DNA of 64,000 nucleotides, taken from the IMG/VR virus record IMGVR_UViG_3300042402_002564, positions 182,503 through 246,502 of that record. One strand, written 5' to 3'. Both the position numbers and the translations under genes were made by a program. Below are positions 42,478-61,469 of the stretch, one piece after another. Under the pieces are notes generated by a model. It did no database searches, was not told the DNA's origin, and saw only the letters and a list, made by a program, of their open reading frames with translations. The DNA comes from a virus. Position 1 is the stretch's first letter, and each line of letters begins with the position of its first letter.

Positions 42478-42660
42478 ATGGAAGACATTAAAAAACAATA
42501 TCCAAGTCCATCAGATTTAAATAATCTATATGGACATACCGATTTGGAAGGATTTTCCAAATATCTTGGTGTAAATTATGATACTCTTCTTGAAATAAAT
42601 AGAAAGAATGCTGAAGTTATTCGAAAATCGGCAAAGGGGTTGACAGAGCAAGACGTTTAG
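42478..42660 (+). CDS. 60-residue hypothetical protein
   Basis: Reads MEDIKKQYPSPSDLNNLYG, then GFSKYLGVNYDTLLEINRKN and EVIRKSAKGLTEQDV. Small helical protein; its 3' end contains the -35 box of the tmRNA promoter. Confidence 0.6.
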   Translation: MEDIKKQYPSPSDLNNLYGHTDLEGFSKYLGVNYDTLLEINRKNAEVIRKSAKGLTEQDV

Positions 42661-42668
42661 GGTACTAT
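42640..42668 (+). promoter_or_regulatory. Promoter of tmRNA and tRNA array
   Basis: TTGACA, 17 bp, TACTAT. Identical -35/-10/spacing to the promoter at 44757. Confidence 0.75.
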
Positions 42669-42674
42669 ATAGAT

Positions 42675-42912
42675 TGTTCAGGAGGAGAGATCCACTGGCA
42701 TTTCGGACTGGGGTTCGACTCCCCACAACTCCATAAATCAAGGGGTTGACAAGGTTTCGACGGGGTGTTATGATCTTATCTGTTGATGGAACAAACAACA
42801 AACGCCAACAAAATCGTGGCATTCTCTCGTAGCAAAGTTGCTACCTTAGTTTGAGAGACGGGGTGACGACTACCTTGTAATCCAAAGTCGCGGGCAGTGG
42901 AATGCTGCCACT
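42675..42912 (+). ncRNA. ssrA: Circularly permuted two-piece tmRNA
   Basis: The acceptor piece comes first: T arm TGGGG-TTCGACT-CCCCA and 3' strand CAACTCC+A ending at 42733. After an 8-base spacer the coding piece starts GGGGTTG at 42742, which pairs with CAACTCC. It continues with the tmRNA hallmark AAGGTTTCGACGGGG. The tag frame at 42804-42854 reads ANKIVAFSRSKVATLV then TGA; the cyanobacterial form is ANKIVSFSRQTAPVAA. The tag end folds into a GTAGCA/TGCTAC hairpin inside TCTCTC/GAGAGA. Permuted two-piece tmRNA is the marine cyanobacterial type. The outer ends are approximate. Confidence 0.88.
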
Positions 42913-42915
42913 TAT

Positions 42916-42989
42916 GCCTCAGTAGCTCAGTGGACTAGAGCATCCGCCTTCTAAGCGGTTGGCCGCAGGTTCGAATCCTGCCTGAGGCG
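42916..42989 (+). tRNA. tRNA-Arg(UCU), first copy
   Basis: Acceptor GCCTCAG/CTGAGGC, anticodon loop CTTCTAA, T loop TTCGAAT, discriminator G. Directly after tmRNA. Confidence 0.93.
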
Positions 42990-43012
42990 TTGACTTTTAA
43001 AATAAAAAGTCT

Positions 43013-43020
43013 TATAAATA
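43013..43020 (+). promoter_or_regulatory. Late-type box TATAAATA
   Basis: Perfect box 22 bases before the 32-residue gene at 43042. Confidence 0.5.
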
Positions 43021-43041
43021 ATAACACTTAGGTCGAAAACA

Positions 43042-43140
43042 ATGTCTTATCCAATGCCCAAACAGTTTAGTAATCTCGATTGCCGTTATTGGCATATTGA
43101 GGGTACTCCCCTGTTTGTGGATATGGATAAACATATGTAG
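43042..43140 (+). CDS. Possible 32-residue protein
   Basis: Reads MSYPMPKQFSNLDCRYWHIE and ends FVDMDKHM. It has a late-type box upstream and a strong terminator downstream, which supports a real transcript, but there is no clear RBS and it sits inside a long inverted repeat (43024-43228). Confidence 0.4.
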   Translation: MSYPMPKQFSNLDCRYWHIEGTPLFVDMDKHM

Positions 43141-43167
43141 TATGTAATCCATAAAAACAAAAAGACA

Positions 43168-43202
43168 GGGGAGAGAAACCAAAAAGTTTCCTCCCCTTTT
43201 TT
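43168..43202 (+). terminator. Strong terminator
   Basis: GGGGAG..GAAAC pairs with GTTTC..CTCCCC, then six T. Confidence 0.85.
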
Positions 43203-43317
43203 GTTGCCTGTGACAGGTTCCTAAGTGTCCACCAATCTCCCCTAAGAGACCAAACGGTGGTATTCTAATCAAGTGGTCGAGAGAGACCACGATTTGCACC
43301 TTGACAATTTAACCCTT

Positions 43318-43390
43318 GGGTCTGTAACTCAGTTGGTAGAGTAGCGGGCTTTTAACCTGTAAGTCGTCGGTTCGAGCCCGACCAGACCCA
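43318..43390 (+). tRNA. tRNA-Lys(UUU)
   Basis: Acceptor GGGTCTG/CAGACCC, anticodon loop CTTTTAA, T loop TTCGAGC, discriminator A. Confidence 0.93.
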
Positions 43391-43428
43391 TTGACCGCCA
43401 CAGTTCGGTCGTTAAACATAAACTGTTC

Positions 43429-43519
43429 GGGAGAGTGGCTACTGTTGGCAATATGTGTGGCTGCGGTCTGTAAAACCGTTACATCGGAACCATCGGGGGT
43501 TCAATTCCCTCCTCTCCCA
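43429..43519 (+). tRNA. tRNA-Tyr(GUA)
   Basis: Class II tRNA: acceptor GGGAGAG/CTCTCCC, anticodon loop CTGTAAA (GUA), extended variable region, T loop TTCAATT. The D region is unusually long. Confidence 0.85.
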
Positions 43520-43523
43520 CCTT

Positions 43524-43596
43524 GACCCTATAGTGAAGTGGTCTATCACGCTACCCTGTCACGGTGGTATCACGGGTTCGAATCCCGTTAGGGTCG
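43524..43596 (+). tRNA. tRNA-Asp(GUC)
   Basis: Acceptor GACCCTA/TAGGGTC, anticodon loop CTGTCAC, T loop TTCGAAT, discriminator G. Confidence 0.92.
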
Positions 43597-43597
43597 T

Positions 43598-43770
43598 TGG
43601 GAGTCAGTATTCTAACTCCCACGCATTCTTCAGAGGTTGCCAGTTTGCAGAAGAATGTTGTAGTAATAACTGGAATTGGGGAGGGATTTCTAACCACCAT
43701 CGGATGATGGCAGGATTCATAAGGCTACGAAGCGTAATCCGTAAGTAACTTCGTGTGGGATACCCCTCCC
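43598..43770 (+). ncRNA. Structured RNA region between tRNA-Asp and tRNA-Glu
   Basis: Three stems in series: GGGAGT/ACTCCC (43599-43620), CATTCTTC/GAAGAATG (43624-43657) and a 92-base unit (43679-43770) closed by a tRNA-acceptor-like GGGAGGG/CCCTCCC. The unit contains CCATC-GGAT-GATGG. There is no T loop or anticodon arm, so it is not a tRNA. Function unknown. Confidence 0.5.
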
Positions 43771-43775
43771 ATCAA

Positions 43776-43848
43776 GGTCCCATCGTCTAATTGGTCAGGA
43801 CGCGACCCTTTCAAGGTTGAAACGCGGGTTCAAACCCCGCTGGGACTA
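43776..43848 (+). tRNA. tRNA-Glu(UUC)
   Basis: Acceptor GGTCCCA/TGGGACT, anticodon loop CTTTCAA, T arm GCGGG-TTCAAAC-CCCGC; followed by CCA in the genome. Confidence 0.9.
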
Positions 43849-43852
43849 CCAA

Positions 43853-43926
43853 CGGAATGTAGCTCAGTTTGGTAGAGCTCTGGTTTTGGGAACCAGTTGT
43901 CGCAGGTTCGAATCCTGTCATTCCGA
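43853..43926 (+). tRNA. tRNA-Pro(UGG), first copy
   Basis: Acceptor CGGAATG/CATTCCG, anticodon loop TTTGGGA, T loop TTCGAAT, discriminator A. Confidence 0.93.
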
Positions 43927-43929
43927 CCA

Positions 43930-44002
43930 CGGGGAATAGCTCAGTTGGTAGAGCACATGCCTGAAGAGCATGGTGTCGGTGGTTCAATTCCACCTTCCTC
44001 GG
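43930..44002 (+). tRNA. tRNA-Phe(GAA)
   Basis: Acceptor CGGGGAA/TTCCTCG, anticodon stem CATGC/GCATG with loop CTGAAGA, T loop TTCAATT. Confidence 0.92.
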
Positions 44003-44005
44003 CTT

Positions 44006-44134
44006 GGGTTGCTGCCCGATATGAGAAACACTCCTGTATTTCTAGGATACGGTAGGGTGAAAACTCGGAATTACCTCTGCCCCGTCTCTTGGGGATGCGA
44101 ATTGAGGAAAGGTAAAGGGAAGAGACAGCAACCC
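44006..44134 (+). ncRNA. Structured RNA, ~129 nt, closed by a 9 bp stem
   Basis: GGGTTGCTG (44006-44014) pairs perfectly with CAGCAACCC (44126-44134). Inside are AGAAA/TTTCT and GTCTCTT/AAGAGAC stems. It fills the spacer between tRNA-Phe and tRNA-Ile, has no reading frame of note and no tRNA arms. Likely a processed non-coding RNA; class unknown to me. Confidence 0.55.
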
Positions 44135-44139
44135 ATATT

Positions 44140-44212
44140 GGAAACATAGCTTAGTTGGTAAAGCATTCGACTGATAATCGAAAGACCACTGGTTCGAGTC
44201 CAGTTGTTTCCA
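44140..44212 (+). tRNA. tRNA-Ile(GAU)
   Basis: Acceptor GGAAACA/TGTTTCC, anticodon stem TTCGA/TCGAA with loop CTGATAA, T loop TTCGAGT. Confidence 0.93.
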
Positions 44213-44299
44213 TAGGACTCCAGCAAGGTGCTTGCTAGGATATAAAAGACTGACGCCTCCCTCTTCAGAAAGAGTACCCAGCAGGTCAGCGTCCATTTT
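44213..44299 (+). other. tRNA spacer with hairpins
   Basis: Contains AGCAAG-GTG-CTTGCT and CTGAC/GTCAG plus GACGC/GCGTC pairs, which are alternatives. No gene seen. Confidence 0.35.
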
Positions 44300-44371
44300 G
44301 GCAGTGTAGTTCAGTGGTAGAACAAGAGATTCATACCCTCTATGTCGGTAGTTCAATTCTACCCACTGCCT
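44300..44371 (+). tRNA. tRNA with CAU anticodon (Met), copy 1
   Basis: Acceptor GGCAGTG/CACTGCC, anticodon stem AGAGA/CCTCT-like with loop TTCATAC, T loop TTCAATT. CAU could also be Ile2 after lysidine modification. Confidence 0.85.
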
Positions 44372-44372
44372 T

Positions 44373-44443
44373 GTGTCGTTAGCCTAGTGGTAAGGCAGTG
44401 GTTTGTGGAACCACCTAGATGGGTTCAATTCCCATACGACACC
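44373..44443 (+). tRNA. tRNA-His(GUG)
   Basis: Acceptor GTGTCGT/ACGACAC, anticodon stem GTGGT/ACCAC with loop TTGTGGA, discriminator C as usual for His. Confidence 0.92.
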
Positions 44444-44445
44444 CC

Positions 44446-44521
44446 GTTCAGGTGGCAGAGTGGTCGAATGCGGAAGTCTGCAAAACTTCTATTACCGTGG
44501 GTTCGAATCCCACCCTGAACT
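44446..44521 (+). tRNA. tRNA-Cys(GCA)
   Basis: Acceptor GTTCAGG/CCTGAAC, anticodon loop CTGCAAA, T arm GTGGG-TTCGAAT-CCCAC, discriminator T(U) as expected for Cys. Confidence 0.9.
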
Positions 44522-44528
44522 CCAAAAA

Positions 44529-44599
44529 GTTGGATTGGTGTAACGGTAGCACGACGGTCTCCAAAACCGTTAGTGGGAGTTCAAATCTCTCATCCTTCG
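44529..44599 (+). tRNA. tRNA-Trp(CCA)
   Basis: Anticodon loop CTCCAAA on a GGT/ACC stem, T arm GGGAG-TTCAAAT-CTCTC, discriminator G. The acceptor GTTGGAT/ATCCTTC has two adjacent U-U mismatches (positions 2 and 3), which is unusual. Confidence 0.75.
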
Positions 44600-44604
44600 C
44601 CTAT

Positions 44605-44677
44605 GCCCTCGTAACTCAGTGGCTAGAGTATCCGCCTTCTAAGCGGTTAGTCGTAGGTTCGAATCCTACCGAGGGTG
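44605..44677 (+). tRNA. tRNA-Arg(UCU), second copy
   Basis: Acceptor GCCCTCG/CGAGGGT (one G-U), same anticodon arm TCCGC-CTTCTAA-GCGGT as the first copy at 42916, different T stem. Confidence 0.92.
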
Positions 44678-44681
44678 CTTT

Positions 44682-44755
44682 GTCCTCTTAACTCAGTGGA
44701 CCAGAGTGCTTGGCTACGAACCAAGAAGTCGCAAGTTCAAATCTTGCAGAGGACG
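44682..44755 (+). tRNA. tRNA-Arg(ACG)
   Basis: Acceptor GTCCTCT/AGAGGAC, anticodon stem CTTGG/CCAAG with loop CTACGAA, T loop TTCAAAT. Confidence 0.92.
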
Positions 44756-44756
44756 C

Positions 44757-44785
44757 TTGACAAACTTACAAAAGTTTGTTACTAT
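44757..44785 (+). promoter_or_regulatory. Promoter inside the tRNA array
   Basis: TTGACA, 17 bp, TACTAT, followed by ATAAT. The 65 bases between it and the next tRNA form a TTGAGT/ACTCAA hairpin. Confidence 0.75.
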
Positions 44786-44850
44786 ATAATAGTGATAGAG
44801 GTTGAGTCCCTGTTACATCCTTATGAGGTGTATCACACTCAATCCATCAA

Positions 44851-44922
44851 AGTGGGGAAGTGTAACGGTTGCACAGAAGTCTCATAAGCTTCAAGAAGGA
44901 GGTTCAATTCCTCCCCCCGCCA
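44851..44922 (+). tRNA. tRNA with CAU anticodon (Met), copy 2
   Basis: Acceptor AGTGGGG/CCCCGCC with an A1-C72 mismatch, anticodon stem GAAGT/GCTTC with loop CTCATAA, T arm GGAGG-TTCAATT-CCTCC. An unpaired 1-72 is a feature of initiator tRNAs, but the GGG/CCC anticodon stem of initiators is missing. Confidence 0.75.
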
Positions 44923-44928
44923 CCACAT

Positions 44929-45001
44929 TCCCTTATAGCTCAATTGGCAGAGCACGGAGCTGTTAACTCTGGGGTTCCTGGTTCGAGTCCAGGTGGGGGA
45001 G
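44929..45001 (+). tRNA. tRNA-Asn(GUU)
   Basis: Acceptor TCCCTTA/TGGGGGA (two G-U), anticodon loop CTGTTAA, T arm CCTGG-TTCGAGT-CCAGG, discriminator G. Confidence 0.9.
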
Positions 45002-45019
45002 TTTTAATCTAGGAATAAA

Positions 45020-45124
45020 ATGATTAATATTTTTAAAAAAATCTATTTTAATATAAAAGCATATATTGAATTTAAAAAAGTATCTAAAAAATGTAGAGAA
45101 GAAGACCCATACATCTATAAATAA
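45020..45124 (+). CDS. 34-residue basic hypothetical protein
   Basis: RBS AGGA seven bases before the ATG. Reads MINIFKKIYFNIKAYIEFKK, then VSKKCREEDPYIYK. Amphipathic and basic. The late box of the next gene lies in its last codons. Confidence 0.5.
   Translation: MINIFKKIYFNIKAYIEFKKVSKKCREEDPYIYK
45116..45123 (+). promoter_or_regulatory. Late-type box TATAAATA
   Basis: Perfect box 11 bases before the SGNH-like gene; close, so the message would be nearly leaderless. Confidence 0.45.
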
Positions 45125-45133
45125 AACTAAAAA

Positions 45134-45904
45134 ATGACTAATAATATATTAGTTACATTTGGATGTAGTTGGACTTTTGGTGAAGGATCTGGATATGTTG
45201 ATGGAATGGATCAAAATGAATATGAAGAAATTCAACAGGATGAAAAAATATGTTATGATAATTCTTGGAGAAAAATCATAGTAGATCATTATAATCTTAG
45301 ACACATAAACTTTTCTGTTCCAGGAAGTAGCAATCAAAGACAGTTTAAAACTGCTAGGGAATATTTTGTAACAGAAGAATGGAAAAAATTAATTAGTGAA
45401 CGCAGAAATAATGTTGTTGTTTTGTGGGGAATTACCAGTACATATAGAAATTATTTTTGGTGTAAAGATACTAATAGATACCAAAACATTTTTTATTCTA
45501 AATCTAAATATGATAGATACCAAGACAAATTGGCAAAAGCAATGATGTCATGGTCCTATGTTAAAGAGGTTGAGGAAGAAGTTGTAAAAAATGAAATATT
45601 ATTTTTTAATCAATATTTTAAATTGGTTGGTGTAAAAAATATGTGGTTTGATACTTTTAATTCTTTAGATTATAAAGAAAAATTTGATAATTTTTTAGAT
45701 CAATATAAAGAACAGAGAGATCTTTTATCGATGCTTTGTTATGAACATGCTAGAAAATTAAATGGCAGATTAGTTTTGAATAATAATTTTAAATATGCTG
45801 AAGAAAATGGATTAATAAATTTAATTAGTTTTCATCCTAAAAAAGAACAATATAAAATTATTGGTGAATATTTTATTAGAAAATTGAAAAAATACTTCAA
45901 ATAA
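45134..45904 (+). CDS. SGNH/GDSL-like hydrolase
   Basis: 256 residues. Block I FGCSWTFGEGSG (Ser nucleophile in GCSW), block II/III-like VPGSSNQRQ and block V FHPKKEQYKIIGEYF with the catalytic His. These are the blocks of SGNH-fold esterases and acetylhydrolases. In a phage it may trim acetyl groups from surface sugars. It is a single gene embedded in the tRNA region. Confidence 0.72.
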   Translation: MTNNILVTFGCSWTFGEGSGYVDGMDQNEYEEIQQDEKICYDNSWRKIIVDHYNLRHINFSVPGSSNQRQFKTAREYFVTEEWKKLISERRNNVVVLWGITSTYRNYFWCKDTNRYQNIFYSKSKYDRYQDKLAKAMMSWSYVKEVEEEVVKNEILFFNQYFKLVGVKNMWFDTFNSLDYKEKFDNFLDQYKEQRDLLSMLCYEHARKLNGRLVLNNNFKYAEENGLINLISFHPKKEQYKIIGEYFIRKLKKYFK

Positions 45905-45916
45905 ATCAATAAATAG

Positions 45917-45945
45917 TTGACAAAATAATTTGTCTCTGTTAAAAT
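45917..45945 (+). promoter_or_regulatory. Promoter of tRNA-Val
   Basis: TTGACA, 17 bp, TAAAAT, ending 9 bases before the tRNA. Confidence 0.75.
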
Positions 45946-45954
45946 AAAATCATC

Positions 45955-46026
45955 GGGCGATTAACTCAGCGGTAGAGTGGCCTCCTTACAAGTGGTAAGT
46001 CACTGGTTCGATTCCAGTATCGCCCA
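45955..46026 (+). tRNA. tRNA-Val(UAC)
   Basis: Acceptor GGGCGAT/ATCGCCC, anticodon loop CTTACAA on a stem with one U-U mismatch, T arm ACTGG-TTCGATT-CCAGT. Confidence 0.85.
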
Positions 46027-46052
46027 TATATAAAATGAAGCATATATAACTT

Positions 46053-46229
46053 ATGAAAGATAAAAAATTCAAAAAATTAATTCAAAAACCTTTAAGATTT
46101 CATCATCAAGATATCCATGAAGAACTTGATAGTATTAAATTATCATTAGCAGATATTAGGAGATTAATGGAAAATGTTAGTAGTGAGATGCAAAGATTGC
46201 AACAAAGAGTTGACAAGTCATCCATCTAA
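46053..46229 (+). CDS. 58-residue hypothetical protein
   Basis: Basic N-terminus (MKDKKFKKLIQKPLRFHHQD) then a coiled-coil-like helix to KSSI. Overlaps the next gene by 56 bases in another frame, so one of the two starts may be wrong, but the helical pattern looks genuine. Confidence 0.5.
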   Translation: MKDKKFKKLIQKPLRFHHQDIHEELDSIKLSLADIRRLMENVSSEMQRLQQRVDKSSI

Positions 46230-46431
46230 AACTCAGTGTTGTGGATGTTCTAATATGATGACTGTCTGTGCTGATAACATATCAGCCATTGATTTAACTA
46301 AAGTAATTATTATTAATTCAAATAATAAAAAACCTCATAAAAAAACAAGTTTATTTTCTCCAGAAGAACTTGAGTATCAAGAATCTAGAAGAAAAAGAAA
46401 AGTTCGCAAATTAGATTTTGAAATACGTTAA
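46174..46431 (+). CDS. Small zinc-ribbon-like protein
   Basis: 85 residues. Cys pairs CKDC (residues 6-9) and CCGC (22-25) form a likely zinc site; the end is a strongly basic QESRRKRKVRKLDFEIR. This pattern is familiar from many marine T4-like phages, function unknown. Confidence 0.8.
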   Translation: MLVVRCKDCNKELTSHPSKTQCCGCSNMMTVCADNISAIDLTKVIIINSNNKKPHKKTSLFSPEELEYQESRRKRKVRKLDFEIR

Positions 46432-46471
46432 ATCTTAACTAAATAAGAAAATAAAGTTTTCTTATTAACTT

Positions 46472-46558
46472 GGAAGGGCAATCCGATTGGCGACGGAACC
46501 TGTCTTGAAAACAGTTGAGGTGTTAAAGCCCTTGGGGGTTCGACTCCCCCTCCTTCCG
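46472..46558 (+). tRNA. tRNA-Ser(UGA)
   Basis: Class II: acceptor GGAAGGG/TCCTTCC, anticodon stem CTGT/ACAG with loop CTTGAAA, long variable arm, T arm GGGGG-TTCGACT-CCCCC, discriminator G. Confidence 0.92.
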
Positions 46559-46601
46559 TTTAACAATTTTTTAATTTGTGTTATAAAATGAACACAATAC
46601 A

Positions 46602-46629
46602 TTGACGTTTAAAAATTAAAAACTATTAT
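46602..46629 (+). promoter_or_regulatory. Sigma-70-like promoter
   Basis: TTGACG, 16 bp, TATTAT; 28 bases before the small gene at 46658. Confidence 0.5.
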
Positions 46630-46657
46630 ATAGTAGTACAACTACTTATAAACCCCA

Positions 46658-46813
46658 ATGGATGATCATACTTACCAAAATTGGGTGAAGATTAAAGAAA
46701 CCTTTGAGTCTTCTGGTAATACAAATAACATGTTTTATCGTAGGGCCTGTGAAATAGTAAAAACTAAAAGAGACCCTTTAGCAAAGTTTTTTGGTGATAC
46801 TAATAATGGATAA
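46658..46813 (+). CDS. 51-residue hypothetical protein
   Basis: Reads MDDHTYQNWVKIKETFESSG and continues RRACEIVKTKRDPLAKF. Charged, helical. Overlaps the next start by 8 bases. Unknown. Confidence 0.55.
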   Translation: MDDHTYQNWVKIKETFESSGNTNNMFYRRACEIVKTKRDPLAKFFGDTNNG

Positions 46814-46892
46814 AACAATTATATCTGCAATAATAATTTTTACATTAATTGGTTTATTCATCAGATGGGGACTTACAAACGCATATGCGTAA
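46806..46892 (+). CDS. 28-residue single-pass membrane peptide
   Basis: Reads MDKTIISAIIIFTLIGLFIR then WGLTNAYA. One membrane helix. Size and composition are like small photosystem or cytochrome subunits, but no such identity can be claimed. Confidence 0.5.
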   Translation: MDKTIISAIIIFTLIGLFIRWGLTNAYA

Positions 46893-46919
46893 GTAAAGAT
46901 AATTTAAATGGAGAGAAAG

Positions 46920-47036
46920 ATGATTTTTCATATTGTAGAGACTCTTGCAGCGAGTCCAGTTTGGTTGTTCTTTTGCGGTTTTGGCTTGACAGTTGTTCCT
47001 TTTATGGGTATAATGATTATACACCGAGATAAATAA
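46920..47036 (+). CDS. 38-residue membrane protein
   Basis: GGAGAG RBS upstream of the ATG at 46920. Hydrophobic helix ASPVWLFFCGFGLTVVPFMG followed by IMIIHRDK. Second membrane peptide in a row. Unknown. Confidence 0.5.
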   Translation: MIFHIVETLAASPVWLFFCGFGLTVVPFMGIMIIHRDK

Positions 47037-47044
47037 TCTTATTA

Positions 47045-47118
47045 CGGGGTGTAGCTCAGTTTGGTAGAGCACTGCTTTTGGGAAGCAGGGGCCGTAGGTT
47101 CGAATCCTATCACCCCGA
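47045..47118 (+). tRNA. tRNA-Pro(UGG), second copy
   Basis: Acceptor CGGGGTG/CACCCCG, anticodon loop TTTGGGA; D arm identical to the first Pro tRNA. Confidence 0.93.
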
Positions 47119-47172
47119 TTAGTAAAATCTTTGTAATTTTACTATTTAAATTTTAGTTAATGATTTTTTTAA

Positions 47173-47301
47173 ATGGAATCACAACAGGAAATTTCTAAAA
47201 TTGAATCTATAGATTTTACTAATGAGTCAAGTAAAGATGCATCAGAGACAGATATCAAAGAGTTGATAGAGGTCTTGACAAACCACAACGATGCATGTTA
47301 A
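47173..47301 (+). CDS. 42-residue acidic hypothetical protein
   Basis: Reads MESQQEISKIESIDFTNESS and ends LIEVLTNHNDAC. Acidic, polar; no RBS obvious. Unknown. Confidence 0.35.
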   Translation: MESQQEISKIESIDFTNESSKDASETDIKELIEVLTNHNDAC

Positions 47302-47303
47302 CT
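47275..47303 (+). promoter_or_regulatory. Possible promoter of the last tRNA group
   Basis: TTGACA, 17 bp, weak TTAACT, ending 20 bases before tRNA-Ile. Confidence 0.35.
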
Positions 47304-47322
47304 TTGATTTGTTGAAACACAC

Positions 47323-47394
47323 GGGACTGTCGCCTATTGGTTAAGGCCCACTGCTTATAACGGTGTGAACTGAGTTCAATTCTCAGCAGTCCTA
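47323..47394 (+). tRNA. tRNA-Ile(UAU), copy 1
   Basis: Acceptor GGGACTG/CAGTCCT, anticodon stem CACTG/CGGTG with loop CTTATAA, T loop TTCAATT; CCA follows in the genome. Confidence 0.85.
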
Positions 47395-47398
47395 CCAA

Positions 47399-47470
47399 GG
47401 GAGTATAGCTTAATGGTTAGAGCGGCCTGCTTATAACGGGTTAGTCTGGGTTCAACTCCCAGTATTCCTA
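47399..47470 (+). tRNA. tRNA-Ile(UAU), copy 2
   Basis: Acceptor GGGAGTA/TATTCCT, anticodon loop CTTATAA, T arm CTGGG-TTCAACT-CCCAG. Four bases after copy 1, with a different body. Confidence 0.85.
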
Positions 47471-47499
47471 TTGCTATTCGCTATTTGCGAATAACGAAT

Positions 47500-47572
47500 G
47501 CTCGTTTAGCCATCTGGTGAAGGCAGCGAACTCATAATTCGCCTCAGGAGAGTTCGATCCTCTCAACGAGCA
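47500..47572 (+). tRNA. tRNA with CAU anticodon (Met), copy 3
   Basis: Acceptor GCTCGTT/AACGAGC, anticodon stem GCGAA/TTCGC with loop CTCATAA, T arm GAGAG-TTCGATC-CTCTC. Confidence 0.9.
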
Positions 47573-47598
47573 CTCGGACAGAATTTAATCTGTCCATC

Positions 47599-55442: not shown

Positions 55443-55910
55443 ATGAAAATCATTGCACATAGAGGAAATATTGATGGTCCCAATCCTTTAACGGAAAACC
55501 ATCCAGATACTATTGATAATGCAATATCAATGGGATTTGATGTTGAAATTGATATTAGATATGATACATTTGATAATAAATTTTATCTAGGTCATGATGA
55601 TCCACAATATGTGGTTACTCCATATTGGTTAGCTGAACGTATGGAAAACCTGTGGATTCATTGTAAAAATATTGAAGCACTTTATCATTTTGTTCATAAA
55701 ACTGGTGGATATAATTATTTTTGGCATCAAACAGATGATTTTACGCTAACCAGTAAAAACTATATTTGGACATATCCTGGACAAACCTATACACCATCTA
55801 GTATAATTGTTATGCCAGAAAATTATATTAAACGAGAAGAATTAAATACTTTGATTGCTTATGATTGTTATGGTGTTTGTACAGATTATCCTCAAAAAAT
55901 AAAAAAATGA
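55443..55910 (+). CDS. GDPD-like phosphodiesterase domain protein
   Basis: 155 residues from the ATG at 55443. IIAHRGNIDGPNP (catalytic HR), ENHPDTIDNAISMGFDVEID (E-D pair) and FYLGHDD match the N-terminal part of glycerophosphodiester phosphodiesterases. Shorter than the usual ~240, so a minimal or specialised form. In a glycan cassette it may act on a glycerol-phosphate substituent. Confidence 0.75.
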   Translation: MKIIAHRGNIDGPNPLTENHPDTIDNAISMGFDVEIDIRYDTFDNKFYLGHDDPQYVVTPYWLAERMENLWIHCKNIEALYHFVHKTGGYNYFWHQTDDFTLTSKNYIWTYPGQTYTPSSIIVMPENYIKREELNTLIAYDCYGVCTDYPQKIKK

Positions 55911-57748: not shown

Positions 57749-58624
57749 ATGATTATTCGTTCTATTCTTGCCGCCGCTGTTGCTGCTACTGCTGCTCCCG
57801 CCATGGCACAAGTCACCAGTGTTAAGCAACTGAGTGATGTTCAACCTACCCAGTGGTCGTATCAAGCGATTACTAATCTGGTAGAGCGTTATGGTTGTGT
57901 TGCTGGTTATCCCAATGGCACCTTCCAGCCTGGTCAACCTGCTACTCGTGCTGAACTTGCTGCCCTGACTAATGCTTGTTTGGATCGCATTACTGAGTTC
58001 CAAAGTGCTGCTGATGCTGCCCTGGCTGCTGCTCTCCGTGCTGAGTTCGCCAAAGAAATCGGTGCTACCAATGCCCGTGTAAGTGCTCTTGAACTTGCTG
58101 CCGCTCAGAAGGCACAAGGCGTGGGTAATTACCTGGGTGCTGGTGTACTGCTGAACAAGCAAGGCACCGCTGGTAACGGTTATACCGAGAACCGTACTAT
58201 CTCTGGTGCTACTATCCAAGGTCGTTATGCTGTGAAGACCTTCAGCAATCAAAATGCTGTTGCTGTTCGTCCTTATACTAACCTTGTTGGTACTCCTGCT
58301 GGTCAGATCGGTGCTGCTGGTGGTGCCCTCCTCTCCTACGATTGGAGTCTCGCCCGTGCCGCTTCTGGTGTGAGCAAGGCTAACATCTACACTGGTGTTG
58401 GTTATCAAATCCCCTTCGTGAATAACACTGCTGCTAACTTCCAGTCCGCTGTGGGTGATCGTGGTCAAGTTGTTCTCGCTCTGGGTATCGAAGGTCGTCT
58501 GACCAACTCTCTGGTTGGTTTTGCTGATCTGAAGTTCCCCACCACCAACGCTGCTAACAGCTACGGTGCAACTAACGGAACCTATTCTCCTGTGTTCACC
58601 ACGGGTCTGGGATTCAAGTTCTGA
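57749..58624 (+). CDS. SLH-domain outer-membrane porin-like protein
   Basis: 291 residues. Signal peptide (about 1-20, ending PAMA), one SLH domain (VKQLSDVQPTQWSYQAI, CVAGYPNGTFQPGQPATRAELA), a coiled coil (about 90-125) and a beta-strand-rich C-terminus ending in Phe (TTGLGFKF). Cyanobacterial SomA/OprB-like porins have this order; the beta barrel here is much shorter. Codon use is clearly more GC-rich than nearby genes, suggesting later transfer from a host. Confidence 0.8.
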   Translation: MIIRSILAAAVAATAAPAMAQVTSVKQLSDVQPTQWSYQAITNLVERYGCVAGYPNGTFQPGQPATRAELAALTNACLDRITEFQSAADAALAAALRAEFAKEIGATNARVSALELAAAQKAQGVGNYLGAGVLLNKQGTAGNGYTENRTISGATIQGRYAVKTFSNQNAVAVRPYTNLVGTPAGQIGAAGGALLSYDWSLARAASGVSKANIYTGVGYQIPFVNNTAANFQSAVGDRGQVVLALGIEGRLTNSLVGFADLKFPTTNAANSYGATNGTYSPVFTTGLGFKF

Positions 58625-60232: not shown

Positions 60233-60237
60233 ACGAA

Positions 60238-60260
60238 GGAGGGTTTATCCCTCCTTTTTT
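60238..60260 (+). terminator. Terminator after peroxiredoxin, fused to a late-like box
   Basis: GGAGGG/CCCTCC stem with loop TTTAT, then six T and AATAAATA (60261-60268). Confidence 0.85.
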
Positions 60261-60268
60261 AATAAATA
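60261..60268 (+). promoter_or_regulatory. Late-like box AATAAATA
   Basis: 24 bases before the ATG at 60292. An earlier ATG at 60271 would be too close to the start of transcription. Confidence 0.5.
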
Positions 60269-60291: not shown

Positions 60292-60990
60292 ATGCTCATC
60301 GATCTTCACAATTTTTTTAAACACTTTGATGAAAATAATCCAAAGCATGTTGCTGCGGTAGAACAATTTGAAAAAGATTTGCTTTTAAAGGCACACGAAT
60401 TGATGCAAGACGAAGCAAATTGGGTAAGGATTTTTAGAACAAAAGAGAACAAACCCCAAGCAACTATTTTACCAGTTCCTTTTTATCCACAAACAGATAA
60501 CTATAGAGATGCAAATAGAACCTGCAACTCTTCTGCTTGTGCAATGTGTCTTGAGTATTTCAAACCTGGCACACTAAAAGGACCTAAGGGCGATGACGCC
60601 TATGTACAAAAAGTTTTTTCAATTGGTGACACAACTGATCACCTGGTTCAAACCAAAGTTCTTGCGTCATACGGTATTAAATCCAGTTTTTCCTACAGCC
60701 TTACTTTTGCTGATCTTGATAGAGAGCTTGCCGCTGGTAGACCTGTTGTTATTGGCATTCTTCATCGCGGGACTTTATCTAATCCCACAGGAGGACACAT
60801 GGTAGTGGTGATTGGTAAGACACCTTCTGGTGATTATGTCGTTAATGACCCTTATGGATCATTAAATGATGGATATACTGGTTCCGTGAACAATGGTAAG
60901 GGTGCTGTTTACAAACGTTCCGAATTATCTCGTAGATGGTGCCCTAAAGGTAATGATGGTTGGGGTAGAATTTTTGATGTAAAAAAGTAG
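60292..60990 (+). CDS. C39-like cysteine peptidase, zero-frame product
   Basis: 232 residues from the ATG at 60292. Active-site pattern: NYRDANRTCNSSACAMCLEY (nucleophile Cys), GGHMVVVIG (His) and VVNDPYGS (Asp/Asn), as in Peptidase_C39-type cell-wall or processing enzymes. It stops at TAG right after the heptamer A AAA AAG (60981-60987), and a pseudoknot follows. A -1 shift would extend it into the lysozyme frame. No signal peptide is seen. Confidence 0.82.
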   Translation: MLIDLHNFFKHFDENNPKHVAAVEQFEKDLLLKAHELMQDEANWVRIFRTKENKPQATILPVPFYPQTDNYRDANRTCNSSACAMCLEYFKPGTLKGPKGDDAYVQKVFSIGDTTDHLVQTKVLASYGIKSSFSYSLTFADLDRELAAGRPVVIGILHRGTLSNPTGGHMVVVIGKTPSGDYVVNDPYGSLNDGYTGSVNNGKGAVYKRSELSRRWCPKGNDGWGRIFDVKK

Positions 60991-61053
60991 AATCAACATC
61001 ACAATCAAAAATCCCTCAATGTGGTGTTGATTTAATTAGAGAGTTTGAGGGAT
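60981..61053 (+). promoter_or_regulatory. -1 ribosomal frameshift signal (slippery site and pseudoknot)
   Basis: Slippery heptamer A AAA AAG in the zero frame, TAG stop directly after, a 4-base spacer, then stem 1 ATCAACATCACA (60992-61003) with TGTGGTGTTGAT (61020-61031), 12 bp with one G-U. Stem 2 is ATCCCTCAA (61011-61019) with TTGAGGGAT (61045-61053), a perfect 9 bp. Loops are 7, 0 and 13 bases. This is the classic H-type frameshift pseudoknot layout; the heptamer is the dnaX type. Confidence 0.88.
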
Positions 61054-61469
61054 GTCACTTGAATGCTTATCCAGACCCACTAACTGGTGGACTTCCAATT
61101 ACAATTGGTTGGGGTTCTACTAAAGATTTTGATGGTAAATCTTTTAAATTGGGTAGAAAAATTACTCAAGAATATGCAGATAAATTATTGTTATTTGACC
61201 TTGAACAAAGATTTCTTCCTTCATTGCAAAAAATACCTTATTGGAGCGAAATGAATGACAACCAACGTGGAGCACTTCTCAGCTTTGCTTATAATCTCGG
61301 TGCTGGCTTCTATGGTAACAGCAATTTCAATACTATTACCCGCAATCTACGTGAGAAGAATTGGAAAGCAATCCCAAAAACATTAGAGATGTATCGTAAT
61401 CCTGGTAGTAAAGTTGAAGCAGGATTACTTAGAAGAAGAAAAGCGGAGGGTAAACTCTGGGTTTCTTAA
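60987..61469 (+). CDS. T4-type lysozyme (GH24), frameshift extension
   Basis: 160 residues when read by -1 shift from the peptidase. Catalytic triad as in T4 lysozyme: Glu in REFEGCHLNAYPD, Asp in YPD, Thr in PITIGWG. The frame has no ATG, GTG or TTG before the catalytic Glu; the first possible start (TTG at 61059) lies after it and would give a dead enzyme. The last stretch (NQRGALLSFAYNLGAGFY, VEAGLLRRRKAEGKLW) is typical GH24. Fusion product about 392 residues: peptidase plus muramidase. Confidence 0.85.
   Translation, partial: VESTSQSKIPQCGVDLIREFEGCHLNAYPDPLTGGLPITIGWGSTKDFDGKSFKLGRKITQEYADKLLLFDLEQRFLPSLQKIPYWSEMNDNQRGALLSFAYNLGAGFYGNSNFNTITRNLREKNWKAIPKTLEMYRNPGSKVEAGLLRRRKAEGKLWVS

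Follow-up and report, generated by a model that had tools for sequence, protein, structure and literature searches.

A probable programmed −1 frameshift between a C39-like peptidase and a lysozyme in cyanophages

We found that a cyanophage locus carries a C39-like peptidase and a GH24 lysozyme in two overlapping reading frames, from which −1 programmed ribosomal frameshifting very probably yields both the peptidase and a peptidase-lysozyme as products of one gene. The locus lies within a window of 64,000 nucleotides, the whole stretch of DNA analyzed here, taken from an IMG/VR virus record of 246.5 kb. This interpretation had been proposed in a preliminary description of the window, and it gained support from relatives, in which the slippery heptamer is conserved and the stem of a downstream hairpin (S1) covaries.

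Reading frames and signals at the junction

The features of the locus, together with a tRNA gene discussed below, are as follows:

43317..43391, + strand: phage tRNA-Lys(UUU) (ARAGORN, Rfam tRNA)
60236..60268, + strand: hairpin resembling a terminator, 3′ of the preceding peroxiredoxin gene, followed by AATAAATA at 60261-60268 (sequence)
60292..60990, + strand: C39-like peptidase gene, 0-frame product of 232 aa and 25.9 kDa (Peptidase_C39_2, PF13529, 4.6e-13, 50.4 bits against a cut-off of 24)
60978..61469, + strand: −1 frame, GH24 lysozyme (Phage_lysozyme, PF00959, 1.4e-24, 87.2 bits against a cut-off of 22.3; dN/dS of relatives)
60981..60987, + strand: slippery heptamer A AAA AAG (sequence; its phase in the peptidase frame fits tandem −1 slippage)
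60988..60990, + strand: 0-frame stop TAG, adjoining the heptamer (sequence)
60990..61003, + strand: putative stimulatory stem S1, 5′ arm, 12 bp core 60992-61003 (shuffle z, compensatory changes)
61011..61019, + strand: possible stem S2, 5′ arm within the S1 loop, ATCCCTCAA (p 0.003 against shuffled loops)
61020..61033, + strand: putative stimulatory stem S1, 3′ arm, core 61020-61031 (shuffle z, compensatory changes)
61045..61053, + strand: possible stem S2, 3′ arm, TTGAGGGAT (pairing in the window's clade)
61047..61049, + strand: catalytic Glu codon, the E of EFEG (sequence and GH24 family pattern)

The peptidase frame is open from 60229, and its 3′ end reads ...GAT GTA AAA AAG TAG AATCAACATCACA... 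Cys, GGH and NDP motifs were found in the peptidase sequence, which also carries an N-terminal domain of ~50 aa. We consider ATG 60292 (MLIDLHNFF...) the likely start, in preference to the earliest TTG of that frame, because it lines up with the N-termini of fused relatives (MKIDLHNFF...). From this start, the predicted products are the 232 aa peptidase and a fusion of 392 aa and 44.1 kDa (60292-60987 joined to 60987-61466), slightly above the ~43 kDa first given, with the lysozyme as its C-terminal part. A structure model of a fused relative (mean pLDDT 77) matched phage endolysins, with weaker matches to C39-like and papain-like peptidases.

The lysozyme sequence contains EFEG...YPD...ITIGWG, the E/D/T catalytic pattern of GH24, and we take the Glu of EFEG to be catalytic from the E-9-D-T pattern, as in T4 lysozyme. 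The earliest ATG, GTG or TTG in this frame is a TTG at 61059, which lies 3′ of the Glu codon. Purifying selection on lysozyme coding was evident in relatives (median dN/dS of 0.12 for the −1 frame). Inspection of the sequence thus bore out three elements of the preliminary description: a heptamer in the peptidase frame with an immediate TAG (60981-60990), a lysozyme frame open from just before the heptamer, and a catalytic Glu upstream of every ATG, GTG or TTG in that frame.

Among window ORFs of at least 100 codons, seven heptamers occur near stops, and two of these seven precede a long −1 ORF: A AAA AAG at 60981 and A AAA AAA at 55901. The latter (55901-55908) stands beside a stop and is followed by a 316-codon −1 frame, with a glycosyltransferase-like gene downstream; it is probably an ordinary ATGA start-stop overlap. 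No Rfam family matching the frameshift site was found. Upstream of the peptidase gene, AATAAATA is a putative late promoter resembling the T4 type; it was not among the sites reported by a sigma-70 consensus promoter scan, which was uninformative. Further upstream, an ORF at 57749-58624 resembles a cyanobacterial SLH-domain porin (MIIRSILAAAVAATAAPAMAQ...) and lies near photosynthesis genes.

In our proposed mechanism, ribosomes at GUA AAA AAG would face a strong hairpin in the mRNA just beyond, perhaps an H-type pseudoknot in the window's clade. The majority would stop at UAG and release the 26 kDa peptidase, comprising the N-terminal and C39-like domains. A fraction would undergo tandem slippage by one base on A AAA AAG and read on in the −1 frame, giving a 44 kDa protein of N-terminal domain, peptidase and GH24 muramidase. 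The two products would presumably be made in a fixed ratio and serve to digest peptidoglycan at lysis, the fusion being the sole route by which the N-terminal domain reaches the muramidase.

In E. coli, from which the best data come, measurements of −1 shifting place A_AAA_AAG among the top three motifs for efficiency, which has been put down to the high shiftiness of tRNA-Lys(UUU) (PMC4066793). The window encodes a tRNA of this class, which decodes both heptamer codons, AAA and AAG, and a functional link between the phage tRNA and the frameshift site is conceivable. This gene belongs to an array of about 22 tRNA genes (42915-47573). Within the tRNA cluster, at 42646-42909, we also observed a permuted tmRNA of cyanobacterial type (Rfam RF01851, 113 bits against a cut-off of 70; also tmRNA_permuted), for which ARAGORN gave the tag ANKIVAFSRSKVATLV.

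Conservation of the heptamer and hairpin

We gathered relatives from IMG/VR scans plus cultured phages, obtaining 105 distinct −1-linked junctions, 87 of them of the close type. A slippery heptamer was present in 86 of the 87 distinct relatives with a lysozyme close by in −1, in keeping with the conservation anticipated in the preliminary description. Of these heptamers, 83 were A AAA AAG, one was A AAA AAA and two were U UUU UUU (S-CAM7 type); S-CAM7 has the same architecture with a GUAGAACC/GGUUCUAC stem. Under a uniform cut-off of 130 nt, the heptamer occurred in 104 of 106 unique peptidases. The stop lay directly 3′ of the heptamer in 70 of the 86 relatives. As codon controls, drawn from the relatives' genes and the window, we looked at Lys-Lys pairs away from the junction: of 115 in these genes, 11 used AAA AAG and none A AAA AAG. 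Clustering at 90% left 44 frameshift-type clusters, plus 7 with start-stop overlap.

Since a one-base change in the A run would join the frames, the arrangement could be imagined as a sequencing or assembly error, or as a decaying split gene. We regard the chance of this as negligible: dozens of independent contigs share this junction configuration, as does the genome of the cultured phage S-PM2, which excludes the miscounted A at 60981-60986 that had been named as a potential pitfall. Together with the low dN/dS, the independent contigs refute sequencing error and pseudogene status for the family.

The frameshift reading further predicts a stimulator, and stimulators typically begin 5-8 nt downstream (PMC4066793). 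The S1 described initially was recovered with its 12 bp core (60992-61003 with 61020-61031), extendable to 14 bp (60990-61033), and it begins about 2-5 nt past the heptamer. In comparison with synonymous-codon shuffles, S1 of the window had a z of −4.2 (p 0.005). The hairpin starts 3-9 nt downstream of the heptamer in almost all relatives. Across the 44 cluster representatives the mean hairpin z against synonymous shuffles was −3.30, with a Stouffer value of about −22 when each representative is taken as independent despite shared ancestry. No hairpin with p ≤ 0.01 appeared among 16 heptamer-less fusions, 11 junctions combining ATGA with an insert, or 44 control positions; median z values were 0.0 for the heptamer-less fusions, −0.5 for the ATGA junctions and +0.3 for the lysozyme control positions. 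Because these controls without the heptamer show no hairpin effect, heptamer and hairpin go together across architectures.

Three main stem sequence types were found: CAACACCAC..GTGGTGTTG, GCCAACTAA..TTAGTTGGC and CTCTACTCC..GGAGTAGAG. They share their place in different registers, which implies that whole stems were replaced with pairing kept. The covariation of S1 expected among relatives was also seen. In the window's stem type, 6 of its 11 pairs show compensatory changes, a number reached by 0 of 500 shuffles; in the third type 5 of 11 pairs do, a number reached by 1 of 500. Both sets of shuffles ignore kinship. When pairing partners were slid as a control, the paired share fell from 95% to about 30-53%.

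These results bear on two further explanations. The lysozyme could be translated alone from a non-canonical start (AUU, AUC) by termination-reinitiation after UAG, without any frameshift. This draws on relatives in which an ATG or GTG overlaps the stop (ATGA/GTGA) and on two clusters with such overlap where the hairpin is weak or absent; the start-stop relatives L284 and L160 retain the heptamer and show little or no hairpin. However, 39 of 75 frameshift-type sequences have no ATG, GTG or TTG in the lysozyme frame up to the catalytic Glu, and reinitiation explains neither the heptamer nor the covarying hairpin, which would hinder it. We therefore hold reinitiation to be highly improbable.

The other explanation is transcriptional slippage on the A run, whereby the two frames would be joined in mRNAs carrying one added A. 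The site is indeed an A run, the group of contigs L197 and L342 has a fused frame with seven A, and the run in S-CAM7 is eight T. Yet six A followed by G is a short run for slippage by bacterial RNA polymerase. Moreover, the run does not lengthen but keeps six A and a G in the exact codon phase, and selection acts on the RNA hairpin that starts 3-9 nt 3′ of it. We hold transcriptional slippage to be very unlikely indeed.

Under the ribosomal frameshift reading, we then considered the form of the stimulator, which had been described as an H-type pseudoknot. A second stem, S2, of 9 bp can form as noted, and the resulting loops (L1 = 7, L2 = 0, L3 = 13) would be sterically possible. Within the window's stem type, 94% of S2 cells are paired, without two-sided change, and for most members of the clade S2 outperforms shuffled loops (p ≤ 0.02). 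Both remaining main stem types lack S2, so the pseudoknot was rejected as a family-wide feature and the claim stands for the window's clade, where it is plausible for this phage on the pairing seen. These same observations allow that the shift is real and its stimulator the plain S1 hairpin, with the pseudoknot not formed or irrelevant. Absence of S2 from the other stem types and of any S2 pair with two-sided change agree with a plain hairpin; the strong pairing within the clade speaks against it, as does the tendency of CCUC-like loop runs to accompany GAG over GAA as the Glu codon (Fisher 4e-6, ancestry ignored). We judge a plain hairpin in this phage to be a serious contender, somewhat short of even. 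Across the family, the hairpin, rather than a pseudoknot, is the apparent general stimulator.

Architectures of the locus and use of the products

We classified the loci of 194 unique peptidases. The frameshift type was the most frequent (93/194), and a further 11 were of this type with an ATG or GTG overlapping the stop. Others had start-stop overlap only (2/194), an in-frame fusion without the heptamer (17/194) or with it (7/194), or an ATGA overlap with a longer lysozyme N-terminus (12/194). Separate genes (32/194) and loci with no lysozyme found nearby (20/194) may both be inflated by contig ends. Some relatives use an ATGA start-stop, separate genes or an in-frame fusion, so members of the family can do without the shift. 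Frames fused without a slippery site and separate starts had been named as evidence against frameshifting, and both occur. In a tree of the peptidase only, however, they are interleaved with the frameshift type as alternative architectures, and well supported branches require the frameshift label to have changed 14 times or more, a number to which recombination between the two domains could have added. The heptamer-less fusions give no sign that the site is accidental, because those fusions also lack the hairpin.

Variants of domain content were also seen. S-CREM1 (L161 1497-2678) has the reverse domain order, lysozyme then C39 peptidase. Close peptidase relatives on L111, L113, L116, L133, L145 and other contigs have no lysozyme after the gene and carry TATAAATA-like motifs just 3′ of it; their muramidase may be elsewhere or lost.

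All seven in-frame fusions with the heptamer have kept the hairpin (z about −2 or lower), and five of the seven have an immediate −1 stop. In ACG-2014f and in contigs L190 and L203, the lysozyme is in frame 0, yet A AAA AAG is kept, the hairpin has a z of −2.1 to −4.3, and the −1 frame stops one codon in. Judging from these signals, a shift would here release a short peptidase, giving the same two products with inverted polarity. The sample here is small, a single species complex of phages plus a pair of contigs. This raises the idea that the two-product output is itself selected, with the signal kept when the default frame flips, such that the shift mostly makes the fusion and in ACG-2014f-like and L190/L203-like loci makes the free peptidase. 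We consider the evidence for such selection evenly balanced.

In the DSL-LC phages, whose peptidase and lysozyme are separate, the ~50 aa domain at the peptidase's N-terminus is duplicated on the lysozyme (tblastn 3e-12; hhalign 99.2%); the copies (LHNFFKFYDE...) lie at L162 2262-2417 in DSL-LC03 and at L163 2340-2489 in DSL-LC02. The frameshift-type lysozyme could obtain this domain by fusion alone, which favors the fusion as the meaningful muramidase product in frameshift-type phages. We also compared the N-terminal extension of ATGA-type lysozymes with the peptidase's N-terminal domain; the resemblance is suggestive (hhalign 52%, E 1.5e-4, from a single comparison) and we do not claim homology. 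The locus likely has a role in lysis, and the enzymes may also have a virion-associated use.

The 'lysin' genes annotated in GenBank for S-PM2 (L159 2457-2675) and S-CAM7 (L164 2259-2531) begin inside the GH24 domain, without the catalytic Glu. In both phages the −1 frame extends the annotated lysin upstream to the slippery site. Frameshift expression would explain why these annotations look truncated, without the catalytic residue.

Comparison with known frameshift and lysis systems

Every element proposed here is already known from programmed −1 frameshifting. The literature yielded no description of a cyanophage lysin frameshift, which is weak evidence of absence given thin coverage of subscription papers and bioRxiv preprints. 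If the proposal is true, a phage sets the dose of two joined cell-wall enzymes by programmed frameshifting, for which we found one partial precedent. The dozens of natural variants, which include stem replacements, two different slippery heptamers and either polarity, would then form a natural series for the evolution of frameshift signals in cyanobacterial hosts.

The closest likeness in signal is to dnaX (tau/gamma) of E. coli and relatives, which shares A AAA AAG, a downstream hairpin and two products with a common N-terminus. It is known in both polarities, the shift giving a shorter product in many bacteria and a longer one in some (PMC4066793). dnaX differs as a gene, and the usual polarity of the phage lysin would give the longer product by the shift; ACG-2014f, L190 and L203 would have the polarity of E. 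coli dnaX. Unlike in dnaX, inspection by eye revealed no Shine-Dalgarno-like stimulator 5′ of the phage site.

Tail assembly chaperones of the lambda gpG/gpGT type likewise have a −1 shift conserved in tailed phages that makes a short and an extended protein. They are a different gene with a different function, and their slippery heptamers vary, whereas the lysin site combines a near-fixed A AAA AAG with a strong hairpin.

Among lysis genes, the phi-vML3 lysin (1994) is cited by PRFect among lysins known to contain a frameshift (PMC10885494). As described in citing work, that locus comprises a lysozyme plus a holin-like protein (PMC3111421); it is similar in being a phage lysin locus with two proteins and different in having no C39 peptidase, making it the nearest, though partial, lysis precedent. 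LysA of mycobacteriophage Ms6 also provides a full and a partial enzyme from one lysis gene; there an internal in-frame start leaves the C-terminal part common, whereas the cyanophage locus would use a frameshift and share the N-terminal part (PMC3111421). Finally, both halves of the window gene match PHROG 3617 (405 aa, unknown function). In this protein of ACG-2014f and similar cyanophages, C39 and GH24 are fused in frame, with the same domain order in one reading frame where the window gene has two.
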